Position numbers and translations under genes: made by a program. From assembly GCF_009720365.1 (NCBI RefSeq), contig NZ_ML769314.1:673264-737263 (forward strand): a stretch of DNA of 64,000 nucleotides, read 5' to 3'. Numbering within the stretch: the stretch's first letter is position 1; every line of letters starts with the position of its first letter. This document shows positions 13,766 through 20,398 of this stretch, piece by piece. Source of the DNA: Catellatospora paridis. GTDB lineage: Bacteria; Actinomycetota; Actinomycetes; Mycobacteriales; Micromonosporaceae. The notes beneath the pieces were generated by a model. That model searched no databases. It saw only the letters and a program-made list of their open reading frames with translations, and was not told where the DNA came from.

Positions 13766-13809
13766 GGCGATGATCCTTGCACGGCCGTTCGGCCGTGGTG
13801 CGGGTGCCC

Positions 13810-13815
13810 TAGGGT
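13810..13815 (+). promoter_or_regulatory. -10 box (TAGGGT) of pnuC
   Basis: TAGGGT ends 7 nt before the pnuC ATG, with no Shine-Dalgarno between, which suggests a leaderless transcript. Confidence 0.55.
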
Positions 13816-13822
13816 GTCGCCC

Positions 13823-14452
13823 ATGCTCGACTGGCTGCTCAGCATCGCTTTCACGGTGCGCGACACCCCGATGACCTGGGCTGAGGTGCTCGGCTTCCTG
13901 ACCGGCGTGCTCAACGTGTGGCTGCTGGTGCGGCAGGACGTCGCCAACTGGGCGGTCGGCATCCTCAACGTGCTCCTGCTGATGGTGGTGTTCGCCACCT
14001 ACGGCCTCTACGCCGATGCGGGCCTGCAGGTCCTCTACGTGGTGCTGGGCCTGCTCGGCTGGTGGCAGTGGCTGCGCGGCGGGGACCGGGGCGGGCGGCT
14101 GGAGGTGTCCCGGACGACCCGTGCCGAGTGGACCGTGCTGGCGGTGGCGGGCGTGGCGGCGACCGCCGGGCTGTGGCTGCTGCTGGACCGGGTCACCGAC
14201 TCGACGGTGCCGCTGGCCGACGCGCTGACCACGGTGCTCTCGCTCGTCGCGACCTACCTGCAGACCCGCAAGAAGCTGGAGAGCTGGTGGATCTGGATCG
14301 TCGCGGACCTGATCTACATTCCGCTGTACCTCTACAAGGACCTGTGGCTGACCGGCGCGCTCTACGTCGTGTTCCTGGGCCTGTGCGTGGCGGGCCTGCT
14401 GGCCTGGCAGAACGCGCTGCGGGCCCGGGTGCCGGCACCGGCCGCGGCATGA
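13823..14452 (+). CDS. pnuC: Nicotinamide riboside/mononucleotide transporter PnuC
   Basis: This is a 209-aa integral membrane protein with about seven hydrophobic segments. It has the PnuC core motifs WAVGILNVLLL and GWWQW, and the C-terminal SWWIWIVADLIYIPLYLYK that forms the substrate-binding aromatic helix. It facilitates uptake of nicotinamide riboside, which is trapped by phosphorylation. The stop codon overlaps the next ATG (ATGA) of the NadR-like gene, which provides exactly that kinase and adenylyltransferase function, so the pair forms a salvage operon for NAD. Confidence 0.93.
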   Translation: MLDWLLSIAFTVRDTPMTWAEVLGFLTGVLNVWLLVRQDVANWAVGILNVLLLMVVFATYGLYADAGLQVLYVVLGLLGWWQWLRGGDRGGRLEVSRTTRAEWTVLAVAGVAATAGLWLLLDRVTDSTVPLADALTTVLSLVATYLQTRKKLESWWIWIVADLIYIPLYLYKDLWLTGALYVVFLGLCVAGLLAWQNALRARVPAPAAA

Positions 14453-15528
14453 GCCGCTCGTACGCCCACGGCATGGTGGTGGGCAAGTTCTACCCGCCGC
14501 ACGCCGGCCACCACCACCTGATCCGGGCGGCGGCCGCTTGGTGCGCCGAGGTCACGGTGGTGGTGGCGCCCTCGCGGCAGGAGTCGATCCCGCTGGCGAC
14601 GCGGCTGGACTGGCTGCGCGAGGAGCACGCGGACACCCCGTGGGTGCGCTTCGCGGGCCGCTACGACGACCTGCGGGTGGACTACGACGATCCGGCCGTA
14701 TGGGACGCGCACTGCGCCGTGTTCCGCGAGGCGGTCGGCGGCCGGGCGGTCGACGCCGTGTTCAGCTCGGAGAAGTACGGCGACGAGCTGGCCCGCCGGT
14801 TCGGGGCGGTGCACGTCGAGGTCGACACGCCCCGCCTGGCGTTCCCGGTGTCGGGCACGGCGGTGCGCGCCGATCCGGTGGCGCACTGGGCCATGCTGTC
14901 CGCGCCGGTGCGGGCCTGGTTCACCCGCCGGGTGGTGGTGCTGGGGGCCGAGTCGACGGGCACCACCACCATGGCCGCGGCGCTGTCGGCTCACTTCGCG
15001 GCGCGGGGCGGGGTCTGGGCGGCCACGCGCTGGGTGCCCGAGTACGGCCGGGAGCTGACGGAGCGCAAGCTGGCCGCGCTCCGGGGGGCCGACCCGGCGG
15101 CGACGGTGTTCGACGTCGCCTGGGACCGGGCCGACTTCGTCGCGGTGGCCCGGGCCCAGTCCGCGGCCGAGGACGCCGCGGCCAGGCAGGGTTCGCCGCT
15201 GCTGGTCTGCGACACCGACGCGCTGGCCACCCAGGTTTGGGAGGAGCGTTACCTGGGCAGTTCGTCACCGCAGGTGCGCGCGCTGGCCCGTCGTCCCGAT
15301 CTGTACCTGTTGACCTCGCATGTCGGGGTCGCCTTCGACGACGACGGGCTGCGCGACGGCGAGCACCTGCGGGGCTGGATGACCGGACGGTTCCGCGAGG
15401 TGCTCGCGGCGTCGCCGGCGCCGGTCGTGGAGTTGTCGGGATCACATGAGGAGCGGCTGCGGACGGCGGTGACGGCGTGCGAACAGGTGTTGAGCACGGG
15501 TCGGGAGCTCGCGGCACCACTTGGCTGA
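14449..15528 (+). CDS. nadR: NadR-like bifunctional NMN adenylyltransferase / ribosylnicotinamide kinase
   Basis: The product is 359 aa. The N-terminal nucleotidyltransferase has GKFYPPHAGH (HxGH at residues 18-21) and the late VSGTAVRAD (about 134-142). The C-terminal kinase-like domain starts at about 160 with GAESTGTTT (166-174). The canonical Walker A lysine is replaced by Thr172, so kinase activity cannot be assumed. A Walker B-like LLVCDTDALAT follows. The helix-turn-helix domain of enterobacterial NadR is absent, so this is an enzyme rather than a repressor. The start overlaps the pnuC stop by 4 nt (ATGA), implying translational coupling. Confidence 0.9.
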   Translation: MSRSYAHGMVVGKFYPPHAGHHHLIRAAAAWCAEVTVVVAPSRQESIPLATRLDWLREEHADTPWVRFAGRYDDLRVDYDDPAVWDAHCAVFREAVGGRAVDAVFSSEKYGDELARRFGAVHVEVDTPRLAFPVSGTAVRADPVAHWAMLSAPVRAWFTRRVVVLGAESTGTTTMAAALSAHFAARGGVWAATRWVPEYGRELTERKLAALRGADPAATVFDVAWDRADFVAVARAQSAAEDAAARQGSPLLVCDTDALATQVWEERYLGSSSPQVRALARRPDLYLLTSHVGVAFDDDGLRDGEHLRGWMTGRFREVLAASPAPVVELSGSHEERLRTAVTACEQVLSTGRELAAPLG

Positions 15529-15614
15529 CCTGGCCGGACGTCCCGGATGACCCGTTCGGGCGTCCGTGCGGGCGACCCCGTCTGGGTTTACAGGTTCGCG
15601 TGGTAAACAATAGA

Positions 15615-15775
15615 GAGACGCGGGAGGGGAGTATCCCTCACGACGGTGTCGTCAGCACGGCTCCCCCCGGCCAACAGAGGCCTGGTGTGATCCCGGCATC
15701 GTCGGTCATCGGCAGTAAGCCGGTGGCAGGAGAGACCTCCGGGGCAAAAATGATGCCGACCGGAGGTCTGTTCAT
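15615..15775 (+). promoter_or_regulatory. yybP-ykoY-type Mn2+ riboswitch controlling the TerC gene
   Basis: Three conserved segments of the class occur in order: GGGGAGTA (15626-15633), CCCGGCATCGTC (about 15692) and GAGACC (15732-15737). P1 can form between GGAGG (15623-15627) and CCTCC (15736-15740). A rival hairpin pairs AGACCTCCGG (15733-15742) perfectly with CCGGAGGTCT (15760-15769), which contains the ribosome site GGAGGT 8 nt before the ATG. The two pairings exclude each other. Ligand binding should therefore free the Shine-Dalgarno, giving a translational ON switch. The class is known to sense Mn2+. Confidence 0.85.
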
Positions 15776-16786
15776 ATGAACGTGTCCACTTGGGAATGGG
15801 CCGCCACCCTCATCGGGTTGCTGGCGCTGCTGACCTTCGACTTGATGATCATCGGTCGGCGGCCGCATGAGCCGTCGATGAAGGAGGCGACCGGTTGGGT
15901 CGTCTTCTACGTCGCCTTGGCGATCGCGTTCGGCGGCTGGATCTTCTATAACCACGGCACGCAGTACGGCCAGGAGTTCTTCGCCGGCTGGGTCACCGAG
16001 TACAGCCTCTCCGTGGACAACCTGTTCGTCTTTGTGATCATCATGAGCCGCTTCGCGGTGCCGCGGATATACCAGCAGAAGGTGCTGCTCATCGGCATCG
16101 TGCTGGCGCTGATCATGCGCGGTGCGTTCATCGCCGCGGGCGCCGCGCTGGTGTCGCGGTTCGTGTGGGTGTTCTACATCTTCGGCGTCTTCCTGATCTA
16201 CACCGCCTACACCCTCACCAAGCACGGCGAGAGCGACGAGTCGGACTTCAAGGAGAACGCGCTGATCCGGTGGAGCCGCCGGGTGCTCCCGATCAGCAAG
16301 GAGTACAACGAAGCGAAGATGACCGTGGTGCAGAACGGCAAGCGGTTCTTCACCCCGATGCTGATCGTGATGATCGCGATCGGCACCACCGACCTGATCT
16401 TCGCGCTCGACTCCATCCCCGCGATCTTCGGCCTGACCAAGGAACCCTTCCTGGTCTTCACTGCCAACGTGTTCGCCCTGATGGGCCTGCGCCAGCTGTA
16501 CTTCCTGCTCGGCGGCCTGCTGGACCGCCTGGTCTACCTCTCGCTGGGCCTGGCCGCGGTGCTCGGCTTCATCGGCGTGAAGCTGATCATGGAGGCCCTG
16601 GCGGGCAACAACGTCCCGTTCATCAACGGCGGCGAGCCCATCACCGCGGTCCCGCACATCAGCATCGGCGTCTCACTCGGCGTGATCATCGGCATCCTGG
16701 CCATCGCCACGGTCGCCAGCCTGATCAAGTCCTCCCGCGAGGAGAAGAACAACCACGAGGAAAAGTCCCCCACCCCGGTGGGCTGA
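15776..16786 (+). CDS. TerC/Alx-family integral membrane protein, probable Mn2+ exporter
   Basis: The product is 336 aa with about nine membrane segments. Both TerC signatures are present: an acidic membrane motif SLSVDNLFVFV (about 77-87) and ALDSIPAIFGLT (about 208-219). Their Asp/Asn residues are thought to bind metal. A charged cytoplasmic loop and a Glu/Lys-rich tail are visible. Members of this family under yybP-ykoY control (E. coli Alx, Bacillus YkoY) export or metallate with manganese, and the riboswitch directly upstream supports that role better than the tellurite-resistance name. The start is the ATG at 15776 behind GGAGGT. Confidence 0.92.
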   Translation: MNVSTWEWAATLIGLLALLTFDLMIIGRRPHEPSMKEATGWVVFYVALAIAFGGWIFYNHGTQYGQEFFAGWVTEYSLSVDNLFVFVIIMSRFAVPRIYQQKVLLIGIVLALIMRGAFIAAGAALVSRFVWVFYIFGVFLIYTAYTLTKHGESDESDFKENALIRWSRRVLPISKEYNEAKMTVVQNGKRFFTPMLIVMIAIGTTDLIFALDSIPAIFGLTKEPFLVFTANVFALMGLRQLYFLLGGLLDRLVYLSLGLAAVLGFIGVKLIMEALAGNNVPFINGGEPITAVPHISIGVSLGVIIGILAIATVASLIKSSREEKNNHEEKSPTPVG

Positions 16787-16952: not shown

Positions 16953-17660
16953 TCAGGGGGTGACGCGGCCCGCGCTGAGCAGGGTGGCGGTGCGGGTGGG
17001 GCGGAGTGGTTCCTCGACGACGAGGTAGGCGTCGCCGCAGGCGTGGAGCATGTGGCGGGTGCTGTCGGGGCTGGGCGGTGTGGTCACGAAGCCGACGTGT
17101 TGGACGGTGCCGTCGCCGGGGCCGAAGAAGTAGAGGTCGCCGGGGCGCTCGGTGCCCAGCGGCACGTCCGCCGTGGCGGCCCGCTGGTCGTCGGCGTCAC
17201 GCGGCATGGTCACGCCGAGCTGCCGGAACGCCAGGTGCACCAGCCCTGAGCAGTCGATGCCGTACGGCGTCAGGCCGCCCCAGACGTAGGGCACGCCGCG
17301 CCAGGCACGGGCCGCTTCGAGCGCCGCGACCGCGCTCGTGCCACCGTCGGCGGTCTCGCGCACGCTGAGCTGGTCCAGCGGCAGCCAACCTGGGTAGCCC
17401 CGGGGGTCGAGCTTGGCCGCGGGCTGCTCGGTCGCGACCACCCGGGCCCAGCCGTCGCGGACCTCCTCGATCAGCACCTGCTCGCCGTGCAGCAGCTGGG
17501 TGAGCACGCCGGTGTACATCCGCCCGGTGTCGTCGAGGCCGGCCACCCAGGACCGGGGGTCACAGCGCGGGCCCAGCGCCGCCGCGTCGACGCCCGGACG
17601 CGGCGCGTCGGGGCGGGACCAGAGCGTCGCCACCGGGGCGGTCACCGTGGCGATCTTCAT
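16953..17660 (-). CDS. NlpC/P60 (C40) peptidase with SH3-like N-terminus, YkfC-type
   Basis: The product is 235 aa. The N-terminal half has SH3b-like strands (VLIEEVRDGWARVVA, GYPGWLPLDQL). The C-terminal NlpC/P60 domain has YVWGGLTPYGIDCSGL with catalytic Cys137, then RPGDLYFFG and VQHVGF with His188. This matches gamma-D-glutamyl-L-diamino acid endopeptidase VI (YkfC), which cuts cell-wall peptides. There is no signal peptide, which fits cytoplasmic recycling. It lies 13 nt downstream of the dipeptide epimerase, its usual partner. The ATG start is at 17660. Confidence 0.92.
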   Translation of the reverse strand: MKIATVTAPVATLWSRPDAPRPGVDAAALGPRCDPRSWVAGLDDTGRMYTGVLTQLLHGEQVLIEEVRDGWARVVATEQPAAKLDPRGYPGWLPLDQLSVRETADGGTSAVAALEAARAWRGVPYVWGGLTPYGIDCSGLVHLAFRQLGVTMPRDADDQRAATADVPLGTERPGDLYFFGPGDGTVQHVGFVTTPPSPDSTRHMLHACGDAYLVVEEPLRPTRTATLLSAGRVTP

Positions 17661-17673
17661 ATCGGACCTCGAT

Positions 17674-18762
17674 TCACTCGGCCGATCCCGGCGACGGAAC
17701 CGACACGCCCAGGCCGGGGGCGTCGGGCAGGACCACCGTGGCGCCGTCGTAGCGGATGCCGCCGGTGACCGGCGACTCCGCCAGCCACCAGGCCGCGTCG
17801 AGATCGCTGACCACCGTGGTCGGATGGGCCGCGACCAGGCTCGCCGCCGCGCCGATGCCGACCGGCCCCTCCATCATGGAGCCGACGCAGGTGCCCAGGC
17901 CGTGCGCGGCGGCCAGCTCGAGCAGGGTGCGCGCGGTGGTGAGGCCGCCGCTCTTGGCCAGTTTCACGTTGACCAGGTCGGCCGCCCGGCGGCGGATCAC
18001 CTCGACCAGGTCGCGTACGCCGAAGACCGACTCGTCCGCCATGATCGGCAGGTCGGCGCGGGCGCTGACCCAGGCCAGGCCGTCCAGGTCGTGCCGGGCG
18101 ACGGGCTGCTCGACCAGCTCGACCGGCAGTTCCAGGGCGGCGATGCGGTTGATGATGTTGAGCGCGTCCCGCGGGGTCCAGCCCTGGTTGGCGTCCAGGC
18201 GCAGCTTCAGTCCCGGCTCCAGGGCGTCGCACACGGCGCGGACCCGGGCCAGGTCGCCCGCGGCGTCCGTGCCGACCTTCAGCTTCAGCACCGTGAAACC
18301 CTCGGCCAGGCGCTGCTTGGCGGTGACGGCCAGCGCGCCCGGCTCGCCCGCGGACAGCGTCACGTCGGTGGGCACCGTCAGGTTCGTGCCGCCGAGCAGG
18401 CGTACCAGCGGAATGTCCAGACGGCGCGCGGCCAGGTCGTGCAGCGCGATCTCGACGGCCATCTTGGCGGCCTCGTTGCCGACCACGGCCCGCGCGACGT
18501 CGCGGCAGCGCGCGGCCAGGTCGTCGGGATCGCGGCCCACCAGCAGCGGCGCCATCATCTCCTCGACGCAGGCCTGCGAGCCGGCCAGGCTCGCCCCGGT
18601 CACCGCCCAGACCTGCGGAGCCTCGCCGAAGCCGGACCGCCCGTCAGCGTCGACCACCTCCACCAGCAGCGTCTCCACGGCGGTGGCCCGGCGCAGCGCG
18701 GTCACGAACGGGGTGTGCAGCGGCGCGGAGATCCGGCGCGTGCGAACTGCGGTGATCGACAC
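17674..18762 (-). CDS. L-Ala-D/L-Glu (dipeptide) epimerase, enolase superfamily
   Basis: The product is 362 aa. The enolase-superfamily residues can be seen: the KxK motif in VLKLKVG (K160, K162), metal ligands D190 (RLDANQGW), E218 (LVEQP) and D243 (MADES), and the second base in NVKLAKSGG (about K267). This set, with the muropeptide peptidase next door, fits the AE-epimerase (YkfB) that converts L-Ala-D-Glu into L-Ala-L-Glu during murein recycling. The related muconate-cycloisomerase and o-succinylbenzoate-synthase families are less likely in this context. The GTG start is at 18762. Confidence 0.88.
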   Translation of the reverse strand: MSITAVRTRRISAPLHTPFVTALRRATAVETLLVEVVDADGRSGFGEAPQVWAVTGASLAGSQACVEEMMAPLLVGRDPDDLAARCRDVARAVVGNEAAKMAVEIALHDLAARRLDIPLVRLLGGTNLTVPTDVTLSAGEPGALAVTAKQRLAEGFTVLKLKVGTDAAGDLARVRAVCDALEPGLKLRLDANQGWTPRDALNIINRIAALELPVELVEQPVARHDLDGLAWVSARADLPIMADESVFGVRDLVEVIRRRAADLVNVKLAKSGGLTTARTLLELAAAHGLGTCVGSMMEGPVGIGAAASLVAAHPTTVVSDLDAAWWLAESPVTGGIRYDGATVVLPDAPGLGVSVPSPGSAE

Positions 18763-18831: not shown

Positions 18832-19668
18832 TCAGTTCATGCCGAGTTGTGCCCAGCTCGCCGCCGCGACCCGGCCCAGCAGCGCGCAGGCGTCCGTGTC
18901 GGACACATCGCCGGTGGTGCAGGCCGCCAGCAGGTAGGGCGCGGCGTCGGGCGGGAAGATCAGCGCACTGCTGTGCCGCTCGCCGGTGACCCAGCCGTTC
19001 TTCAGCGCCACCCGGGTGCCCGCGGGCAGGCCCAGGTGCAGGTCGTCGCGGCACTGCTGCGCGGTCAGCACGTCGATCATCGCGGCCGACCCGGCGGCCG
19101 ACGCCAGCCGGTTTCCGGCCAGCGCGCCGAACAGCGCGGCCAGGTCGGCGGCGGTGACCTCGTTGCTGATCCCGCCGTCGCGCGCCGGGTAGTCCTCGAT
19201 GCCGCGGTCGGTGTGCGCCCGGGTCGCCCCGGCCAGCTGCCACACCTCGTTGACCTGCGCGAACGCCTGCTCGTTCGGGCCCAGCGCACCCAGCACCAGG
19301 TTGGTGGCGAGGTTGGACGACCGCACGATCATCCGGTCGATCAGCCAGCGCAGCGGCGCCCGGCCGCCCAGGCGATCCCAGACCTGCTGGTCGCTGTCGT
19401 ACGCCGGGTCGTTGGCGTAGGCCGGGCCGCCGGGGGCGGCCGAGACGTGCTCGTTGTGCACCGCGATCTCTGCGTCCAGGTCGAGCCGGCCGGCCTCGGC
19501 GGCCCGCCAGGCGGCCGCCATCACGCCGACCTTCATGGTGCTGGCGGCGTAGTGCAGCTCGTGCTCGGCGCGGGCGAACACCGCGGGCCCGTCCAGCCGG
19601 CCGCACCACACCGAGGCGGTGCCGGGGAACGCGTCGAGTTCGGGCGTGAGGCTCTGCAGCGTGTTCAC
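18832..19668 (-). CDS. Class A beta-lactamase-like serine hydrolase
   Basis: The GTG at 19668 gives 278 aa. The SxxK motif is S43-T-M-K46, SxN is S117-S-N119 and a KTG-like K223-N-G lies near the C-terminus. The fold therefore belongs to the serine beta-lactamase/DD-peptidase group. No signal peptide is seen, which is unusual for a true beta-lactamase and suggests a cytosolic hydrolase, possibly acting on recovered wall peptides with the two downstream genes. An Asp/Glu-rich RGIEDYPARD (about 155-164) lies where class A enzymes have the Omega loop. A TACGCT box sits 8 nt before the start, favouring a leaderless mRNA. Confidence 0.85.
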   Translation of the reverse strand: MNTLQSLTPELDAFPGTASVWCGRLDGPAVFARAEHELHYAASTMKVGVMAAAWRAAEAGRLDLDAEIAVHNEHVSAAPGGPAYANDPAYDSDQQVWDRLGGRAPLRWLIDRMIVRSSNLATNLVLGALGPNEQAFAQVNEVWQLAGATRAHTDRGIEDYPARDGGISNEVTAADLAALFGALAGNRLASAAGSAAMIDVLTAQQCRDDLHLGLPAGTRVALKNGWVTGERHSSALIFPPDAAPYLLAACTTGDVSDTDACALLGRVAAASWAQLGMN

Positions 19669-19676
19669 GGTTTGGC

Positions 19677-19682
19677 AGCGTA
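19677..19682 (-). promoter_or_regulatory. -10 box (TACGCT) of the serine hydrolase gene
   Basis: On the minus strand TACGCT ends 8 nt before the GTG at 19668, with no Shine-Dalgarno between. Confidence 0.5.
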
Positions 19683-19718
19683 CCGACCCACGGGGCGGCG
19701 ACATGCCCCGGGCTGCAC

Positions 19719-19724
19719 TAGAGT
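19719..19724 (+). promoter_or_regulatory. -10 box (TAGAGT) of the zinc-ribbon membrane protein gene
   Basis: TAGAGT ends 8 nt before the GTG at 19733. The divergent serine hydrolase promoter is about 40 bp away. Confidence 0.55.
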
Positions 19725-19732
19725 CCCGCGCC

Positions 19733-20398
19733 GTGACCGAACTGATCCCCTCGCACCTCTCCTCGCCGGTCCCGCACCCGGACCGCACCCACCGCTGTCA
19801 GAACTGCGGATGCAGTCCGGCGGCGGAGATGACCTTCCGCGGTCACCGCGGCATGATCCTCGTGATGCAGTTCCTCAAGGAGCGCGGCACCTACTGCCGC
19901 ACCTGCGGTCTGGCGATCTTCCGCACCATGACCAGCCGCACCCTGGTGCAGGGCTGGTGGGGTTGGGCGTCGTTCATCATCACGCCGTTCATCCTGCTCT
20001 ACAACCTGTTCGCCCGCCGCAAGCTGAACAACCTGACCGAGCCGGCGCCCGCGCTCGACGGCTCGTCGGGTATGCCGTGGAACCCGGGCAGGCCGGTGTA
20101 CCAGCGGGCCACCATCGTCGGCCTGCTCATCCCGCTCGCCGTGGTGGGCGCCATCGGGTACGCCATCGCGACCGGCGGCGCGGAGAACAAGATCGGGCAG
20201 TGCGTCGTCTCCACCGCGGGCGGGACCGAGGTCGATTTCGTGGACTGCAGCGAGCCGAACGAGGGCATGGTGACCCAGGTCGTGGACAGCCCGAGCCAGT
20301 GCTCGGACAGCGCGACCGGCTACGTCGAGGAGACCTACACCCGGCGCGGCCGCACCACCAGCACCGACATCTACTGCCTCGACCCCGACCCGTCCTGA
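19733..20398 (+). CDS. Zinc-ribbon membrane protein with LppU-like C-terminal domain (paralogue 1)
   Basis: The product is 221 aa of unknown function. An N-terminal ribbon has two knuckles: CQNCGCSPAAEMTF (about 19-32) and TYCRTCGLAIFR (about 53-64). A hydrophobic segment WASFIITPFILLYNLF follows, then a second (IVGLLIPLAVVGAIGYAI). The C-terminal portion with GQCVVSTAGG...FVDCSEP...QCS...GYVEETY resembles actinobacterial LppU/SCO3897-like secreted domains with paired Cys. It is a paralogue of the gene at 34830-35501, sharing order and motifs. The probable topology is cytosolic ribbon, membrane helices and an exported C-terminus. The start is fixed by the TAGAGT box. Confidence 0.82.
   Translation: MTELIPSHLSSPVPHPDRTHRCQNCGCSPAAEMTFRGHRGMILVMQFLKERGTYCRTCGLAIFRTMTSRTLVQGWWGWASFIITPFILLYNLFARRKLNNLTEPAPALDGSSGMPWNPGRPVYQRATIVGLLIPLAVVGAIGYAIATGGAENKIGQCVVSTAGGTEVDFVDCSEPNEGMVTQVVDSPSQCSDSATGYVEETYTRRGRTTSTDIYCLDPDPS

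Follow-up and report, generated by a model that had tools for sequence, protein, structure and literature searches.

A P2-less leader of the yybP-ykoY type, probably a manganese riboswitch, 5' of a TerC gene in Catellatospora paridis

The alx leader of E. coli is reportedly a translational Mn2+ riboswitch 5' of a TerC/Alx gene, and the terC motif RNA is a metal-linked leader. For the yybP-ykoY class (Rfam RF00080), aptamers of L. lactis and X. oryzae have been solved. In these, the A-minor contact on which docking relies is formed by A10 of L1, and an adenosine of L3 (A41 in L. lactis, A48 in X. oryzae) contacts Mn2+ through its N7 and is essential for the Mn2+-docked state (PMC6754395). P1.1 is described as a weak switch helix that is stabilised by Mn2+ (PMC6754395 and PMC11087558). 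Mn2+ systems are named that comprise TerC, UPF0016 and P-type ATPases, and some of their genes are preceded by the riboswitch (PMC13274385). The leader of cg2157 (terC) in Corynebacterium glutamicum was listed as RF00080, scoring 49.13 bits with an older Rfam model, and its 5' end was mapped 6 nt into the match (PMC3890552). A search of literature listings, from which Price 2015 and Dambach 2015 were absent, found no paper on a P2-less form in actinomycetes.

The locus described here lies in a stretch of 64,000 nucleotides of C. paridis (contig NZ_ML769314.1), hereafter the window, in which positions 15615-15775 are a non-coding leader immediately 5' of a TerC gene. The protein matched Pfam PF03741 (175.6 bits against a cut-off of 27.8, E 1.1e-51) and NCBIfam TIGR03718 (391.8 bits against a cut-off of 246.4, E 2.3e-117), the Alx subfamily, for which NCBIfam's own name is R_switched_Alx. 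The nearest named TerC loci come from Catellatospora species, with proteins 94-99% identical. A preliminary description of the window had placed a yybP-ykoY riboswitch at 15615-15775, which was correct to within a few bases: the aptamer occupies 15621-15741, and the expression platform extends to 15775 (Table 1). The whole-leader fold had a z of -5.7, and none of 200 shuffles was equally stable. Transcription probably begins at about 15617-15619, just ahead of P1, since 39 of 90 loci had a -10-like hexamer 13-24 nt 5' of the aptamer, whereas a control stretch 33-44 nt 5' of it contained one in 3 of 90. Directly 5' of the leader (13800-15528, + strand) are genes for a PnuC-type nicotinamide mononucleotide transporter (PF04973) and then a NadR-like protein with AAA_28 and a weak cytidylyltransferase-like match. 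Convergent to terC on the - strand are genes for an NlpC/P60 hydrolase (16953-17660), an enolase-superfamily, mandelate racemase-like enzyme (17674-18762) and a beta-lactamase-fold protein (18832-19788).

Table 1. Coordinates of the features at the TerC leader (window positions) and the basis for each.
Feature	Coordinates	Strand	Basis or remark
-10-like hexamer AACAAT	15606-15611	+	upstream of the aptamer
Aptamer, P2-less yybP-ykoY type, putative Mn2+ riboswitch	15621-15741	+	R1 covariance model and covariation; Mn2+ sensing predicted
P1.1 5' strand GGAGG, switch helix	15623-15627	+	pairing and double changes, 90 loci
L1 5' strand GGAGUA	15628-15633	+	A15630 aligned with A10 of the solved aptamers
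P1.2 5' strand UCC	15634-15636	+	partner GGA 15729-15731
Junction nucleotides, no helix	15637-15640	+	position of P2 in canonical members
P3 5' strand	15641-15651	+	partner 15694-15704; covariation
L3 UCAGCAC	15652-15658	+	A15654 aligned with the adenosine that binds Mn2+ (A41 in L. lactis, A48 in X. oryzae)
P3.2 hairpin	15659-15693	+	GG 15659-15660 with CC 15692-15693; interior variable
P3 3' strand CGGCAUCGUCG	15694-15704	+	covariation
P4 hairpin	15705-15727	+	7 pairs, every one with double changes (90 loci)
P1.2 3' strand GGA, then L1 3' strand GAGA	15729-15735	+	column conservation, 90 loci
SD-sequestering hairpin, 5' arm AGACCTCCGG	15733-15742	+	perfect 10-bp complement of 15760-15769
P1.1 3' strand CCUCC, also anti-Shine-Dalgarno	15736-15740	+	partner GGAGG 15623-15627
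SD-sequestering hairpin, 3' arm CCGGAGGTCT = CCGGAGGUCU	15760-15769	+	encloses Shine-Dalgarno GGAGG 15762-15766
TerC gene	15776-16786	+	336 aa, ATG at 15776; TerC/Alx family metal homeostasis membrane protein

DNA similarity showed the leader to be conserved within the family, where 104 of 150 genomes have it. We aligned 23 leaders (A1) and built a covariance model, R1, on 23 relatives; on the window aptamer, which is part of its training set, R1 scored 102.9 bits (E 6.9e-24). Of 296 genomes from the taxonomic class, 159 contained an R1 match; of 296 from the phylum, 52 did, including 32 that lie outside the class. Of 23 named TerC loci, R1 matched 18 with an E of at most 1e-4, and the other 5 gave no such match; genera with such a match at TerC include Catellatospora, Blastococcus, Goekera, Antribacter and Boudabousia. 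A total of 140 loci were examined, namely 90 of mixed origin, 20 further ones from the class and 30 from the phylum sample. The 90 comprised 21 loci from a family-level DNA search and 69 R1 matches, the latter mostly best matches plus others picked for family coverage and second copies.

In A1, 97.0% of the cells in the five helices were paired, and double-change cells numbered 33 (shuffle mean 9.5). When the 90 loci were aligned by R1 (A2), there were 348 double-change cells against a shuffle mean of 103.7 (as high in none of 500 shuffles; slid controls 40-88), a count that leans toward structure because A2 was fitted to the model. P1.1 had 445 of 450 cells paired across the 90 loci, with 28 double-change cells against a mean of 4.8, and P1.2 had 337 of 360 paired, with 51 against 12.4; for each helix, none of 1000 whole-strand shuffles reached the observed value. 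The first P1.2 pair was seen as U-A, C-G, G-C and A-U. The departure from chance rests mainly on conservation and covariation.

In the putative metal core, L1 read GGAGUA in all 90 loci (GGAGTA in 138 of 140 in the wider set), with GAGA on its 3' strand in 86 and AAGA in 4, so the sarcin-ricin-like arrangement of the class, GGGGAGUA opposite RAGA with an equivalent of A10, is present. In the L3 triplet the C and the A were invariant (90 of 90), as counted from alignment columns, a pattern count mis-anchoring some triplets (e.g., GCATCGT). The invariant adenosine corresponds by sequence to the one that contacts Mn2+, and the UCA of the window is the same as in L. lactis (PMC6754395). The P1.1 switch helix, P1.2, P3 and P4 of the class were all found. 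The P2 stem and four-way junction of the solved structures were absent; only four bases separate P1.2 from P3, which implies a three-way junction. The spacing from GGAGTA to CGNCA was 15-20 nt in 123 of 140 loci and shorter in the others, for some of them through mis-anchoring of the pattern. Two RF00080 members from other Actinomycetota (L031 and L037) do possess P2; the rest of their core is the same. We conclude from these comparisons that the leader is a P2-less, three-way-junction variant of the manganese riboswitch, with a predicted role as a translational ON switch.

Assignment to the yybP-ykoY class, as first proposed, was upheld by core letters, covariation and target genes, whereas the standard four-way form was not, P2 being absent, and the search with RF00080 that had been put forward as its check formally failed. 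Rfam 15 RF00080 did not match the leader at its gathering score, with E allowed up to 10 (15500-15900) or in a scan of the whole genome, and the leader falls short of the threshold for membership of at least 45 bits; we treat it as a variant within the class that lies outside RF00080 itself. None of the 4227 Rfam families matched the leader at gathering score, and three matches to other families at E up to 10 within 15500-15900 were far under their gathering scores and biologically irrelevant. In the phylum sample, RF00080 reached its cut-off in 1 of 198 genomes. In the 16 genomes of that sample from the same class (source genome excluded), RF00080 found the leader in none and R1 found it in 12. 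Both models coincided in position at four loci (L111, L112, L113 and L116), and R1 gave weak matches (E 0.02 and 0.058) to L031, which scores above the cut-off of RF00080, and to L037. As its alignments show, the Rfam 15 model of RF00080 assigns no pairs to P1 or to the L1 3' strand, includes a P2 stem and carries a long 3' extension, and it looks poorly suited to actinomycete members. Because a model so built misses nearly all of the actinomycete leaders that R1 finds, its silence was not taken as a refutation. Considering also the 49.13 bits that the older model gave to the C. glutamicum terC leader (PMC3890552), we infer that the absent match reflects the model and the divergence of the lineage.

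The Shine-Dalgarno (SD) sequence GGAGG lies nine bases 5' of the ATG at 15776. As the preliminary description had noted, CCTCC 15736-15740 can pair either in P1.1, with GGAGG 15623-15627, or in a perfect 10-bp hairpin that holds the SD; the complementarity was confirmed, and a perfect inverted repeat of at least 10 bp occurred in 9 of 1000 dinucleotide shuffles of the leader stretch. Since both helices use CCTCC, they are mutually exclusive. A comparable arrangement recurred among the 77 TerC leaders whose start was identified: in 67 of them a helix of 6 bp or more can form between the P1 3' strand and the SD region, and such a helix is not possible in the other 10. An SD held in a helix that excludes P1 of the aptamer, as is characteristic of translational riboswitches, was thus found in the window and in 67 of 77 relatives. 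Anti-SD helices averaged 7.83 bp with their own partners and 7.18 bp with swapped partners, a control weaker than expected; the difference is modest because both strands are conserved. Stronger evidence for the platform comes from variant loci in which all three strands were altered together: P1 is GAAGG/CCUUC with SD CCGAAGG in L049 and L107, GAAGG/CCUUC with SD GGUGGAAGG in L093, and CAAGG/CCUUG with SD CACAAGG in L077. There are counter-examples (L080, L096 and L098), in which the SD strand is still GAGG although the P1 strand is CCUU.

In a nearest-neighbour energy model, which excludes tertiary docking and Mn2+, the SD hairpin of the window was always formed and P1.1 almost never, and the P1-enforced state was 18.0 kcal/mol less stable than the sequestered (OFF) state. 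For the 77 relatives the gap ranged from 3.9 to 21.5 kcal/mol (median 11.6), and with P1 enforced the SD was still partly paired (modeled median 0.55). Switching at equilibrium was rejected because of the 18.0 kcal/mol. Gaps of this size argue for a co-transcriptional decision, made while the SD arm, some 20-30 nt further on, has yet to be synthesised. The calculated OFF state also contains a small hairpin at window positions 15624-15639, GAGGG(GAGUAU)CCCUC, which would sequester the P1 5' strand. It is possibly a second competitor of P1 in the model; we make no claim for it, because L1 and P1.2 require its G and C runs anyway.

The leader is very probably a compact P2-less, Mn2+-sensing riboswitch of the yybP-ykoY class that turns TerC translation ON and is decided co-transcriptionally. 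When Mn2+ is scarce, the nascent CCUCC (15736-15740) would pair with the SD region (15760-15769) and TerC would remain untranslated. When Mn2+ is plentiful, it would bridge L1 and L3 while polymerase transcribes the next 30 nt; docking of the two legs through L1 and L3 would keep CCUCC in P1.1 with GGAGG (15623-15627), the SD would emerge unpaired, and TerC would be translated. The TerC/Alx protein may then lower or redistribute cytosolic Mn2+. Translation induced by Mn2+ had been predicted from the window, and the comparative evidence favors it, with ON as the probable direction.

Transcriptional control by an intrinsic terminator was rejected, since a search behind the hairpin (15769) found no U tract before the gene. 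The same finding agrees with another reading, in which the aptamer is real and acts mainly via Rho: without Mn2+ transcription of the untranslated leader and gene would be terminated, Mn2+ would restore coupling, and the SD helix would be only half of the mechanism. E. coli mntP offers a precedent, its translational Mn2+ riboswitch acting together with Rho-dependent termination (PMC11647493). The SD hairpin, however, is conserved in its own right, and we regard control mainly through Rho as possible but somewhat doubtful.

The genes behind the element bear on the metal that is sensed. Reference proteins taken from these loci were identified with Pfam or NCBIfam and then used in tblastn to assign the target families. 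TerC followed in 113 of the 140 loci, a P-type ATPase in 11 (more than 500 bases from the aptamer in L170 and L174) and GDT1/UPF0016 in 2, so that Mn2+-homeostasis genes, usual targets of the class and from families linked to manganese export, account for 126 of 140. The remaining targets were GreA/GreB-like proteins (3), uncharacterised proteins without a Pfam family (3), PGPGW proteins (2, one weak and distant) and loci with none recognised (6, some at contig ends). Taken with the families named in PMC13274385, this mix supports a manganese rather than a tellurium role for the TerC protein, a role that had been proposed for it at the outset and to which the R_switched_Alx name of TIGR03718 also points. 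The same fold could instead sense another divalent metal or pH, with TerC in a broader metal or stress response. TerC families have been linked to several stresses, and the three GreA-like, three uncharacterised and one adjacent PGPGW targets are not transporters. Against this, the 126 targets match the mix known for Mn2+ riboswitches (PMC13274385), and the adenosine that gives Mn2+ selectivity is invariant; we consider a different signal improbable.

Several targets are described here as observations. The GreA/GreB-family proteins (L102, L103 and L106) lie behind an Mn2+-type aptamer in three families of the class; PF01272 matched L106 at E 7.9e-17, L103 was under the cut-off, and L102 was recognised from tblastn only. 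In L106, the SD contains CACAAGG, to which the P1 3' strand, CCUUGUG, pairs. An uncharacterised protein some 200 aa long recurred behind the aptamer in one family (L079, L095 and L198; f87), with no Pfam match for L079 and L095 and no NCBIfam match for L079. One genome (G567) has three aptamers, two 5' of TerC and one 5' of the gene for the uncharacterised protein. Blastococcus and Goekera have two adjoining terC genes (L142, L144 and L148; L145, L147, L149, L150 and L151), and each copy has its own aptamer in L142, L144 and L148, the first aptamer of L144 and L148 being cut by the locus end.

A constitutive SD hairpin or RNA thermometer without a metal sensor, with upstream helices that merely stabilise the mRNA, would account for the very stable sequestered state, but it leaves the invariant unpaired GGAGUA, GAGA and YCA and a covarying P1 that competes with the hairpin unexplained, and is very unlikely. 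Control by a translated upstream ORF (ATGATGCCGACC..., 15750-15779), whose frame is open in the window and ends at the TerC start with an ATGA overlap, was rejected together with translational coupling as scarcely credible, since the frame is not conserved among relatives L009-L012 (L011 and L012 lack the ATG, and in L009 and L010 it continues into TerC).

On a wider scale, these data could describe a phylum-wide three-way-junction Mn2+ riboswitch in Actinomycetota that Rfam misses, in which P1 mimics the SD, three strands co-evolve, and the regulon takes in GreA/GreB-like proteins and the recurrent uncharacterised protein; we hold this broader picture in even balance. TerC genes behind the element, which 159 of the 296 class genomes contain, would be better annotated with manganese control than with tellurite-resistance labels, and a standard library model is seen to overlook a whole lineage of a well-studied riboswitch. 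The smaller natural aptamer would also make the Mn2+ core accessible to study without P2, and the GreA-like and uncharacterised genes are named as candidate members of an actinomycete manganese regulon.

Compared to known systems, the leader resembles the NiCo riboswitch as a metal-linked leader; NiCo lacks the L1-L3 docking core (PMC6754395). Unlike NiCo and the terC motif RNA, the leader matches no Rfam family at gathering score. Like the C. glutamicum cg2157 leader, which was listed as RF00080 (PMC3890552), it is an actinomycete terC leader. With RF00080 and the L. lactis and X. oryzae aptamers it shares GGGGAGUA opposite GAGA or AAGA in L1, the invariant L3 adenosine, CGUCA/CCGG, the P1.1 switch helix, P3 and P4, and targets among TerC, GDT1 and P-type ATPases; it differs in having no P2 and hence a three-way junction, in a P1.2 of UCC(C)/(G)GGA, and in having no Rfam 15 match. 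Like E. coli mntP, it would place an Mn2+-type aptamer with translational ON control 5' of a gene for an Mn2+ exporter or TerC/Alx (PMC11647493). In contrast to E. coli mntP and alx, the P1 3' strand of the leader is itself the anti-SD and the P1 5' strand mimics the SD.
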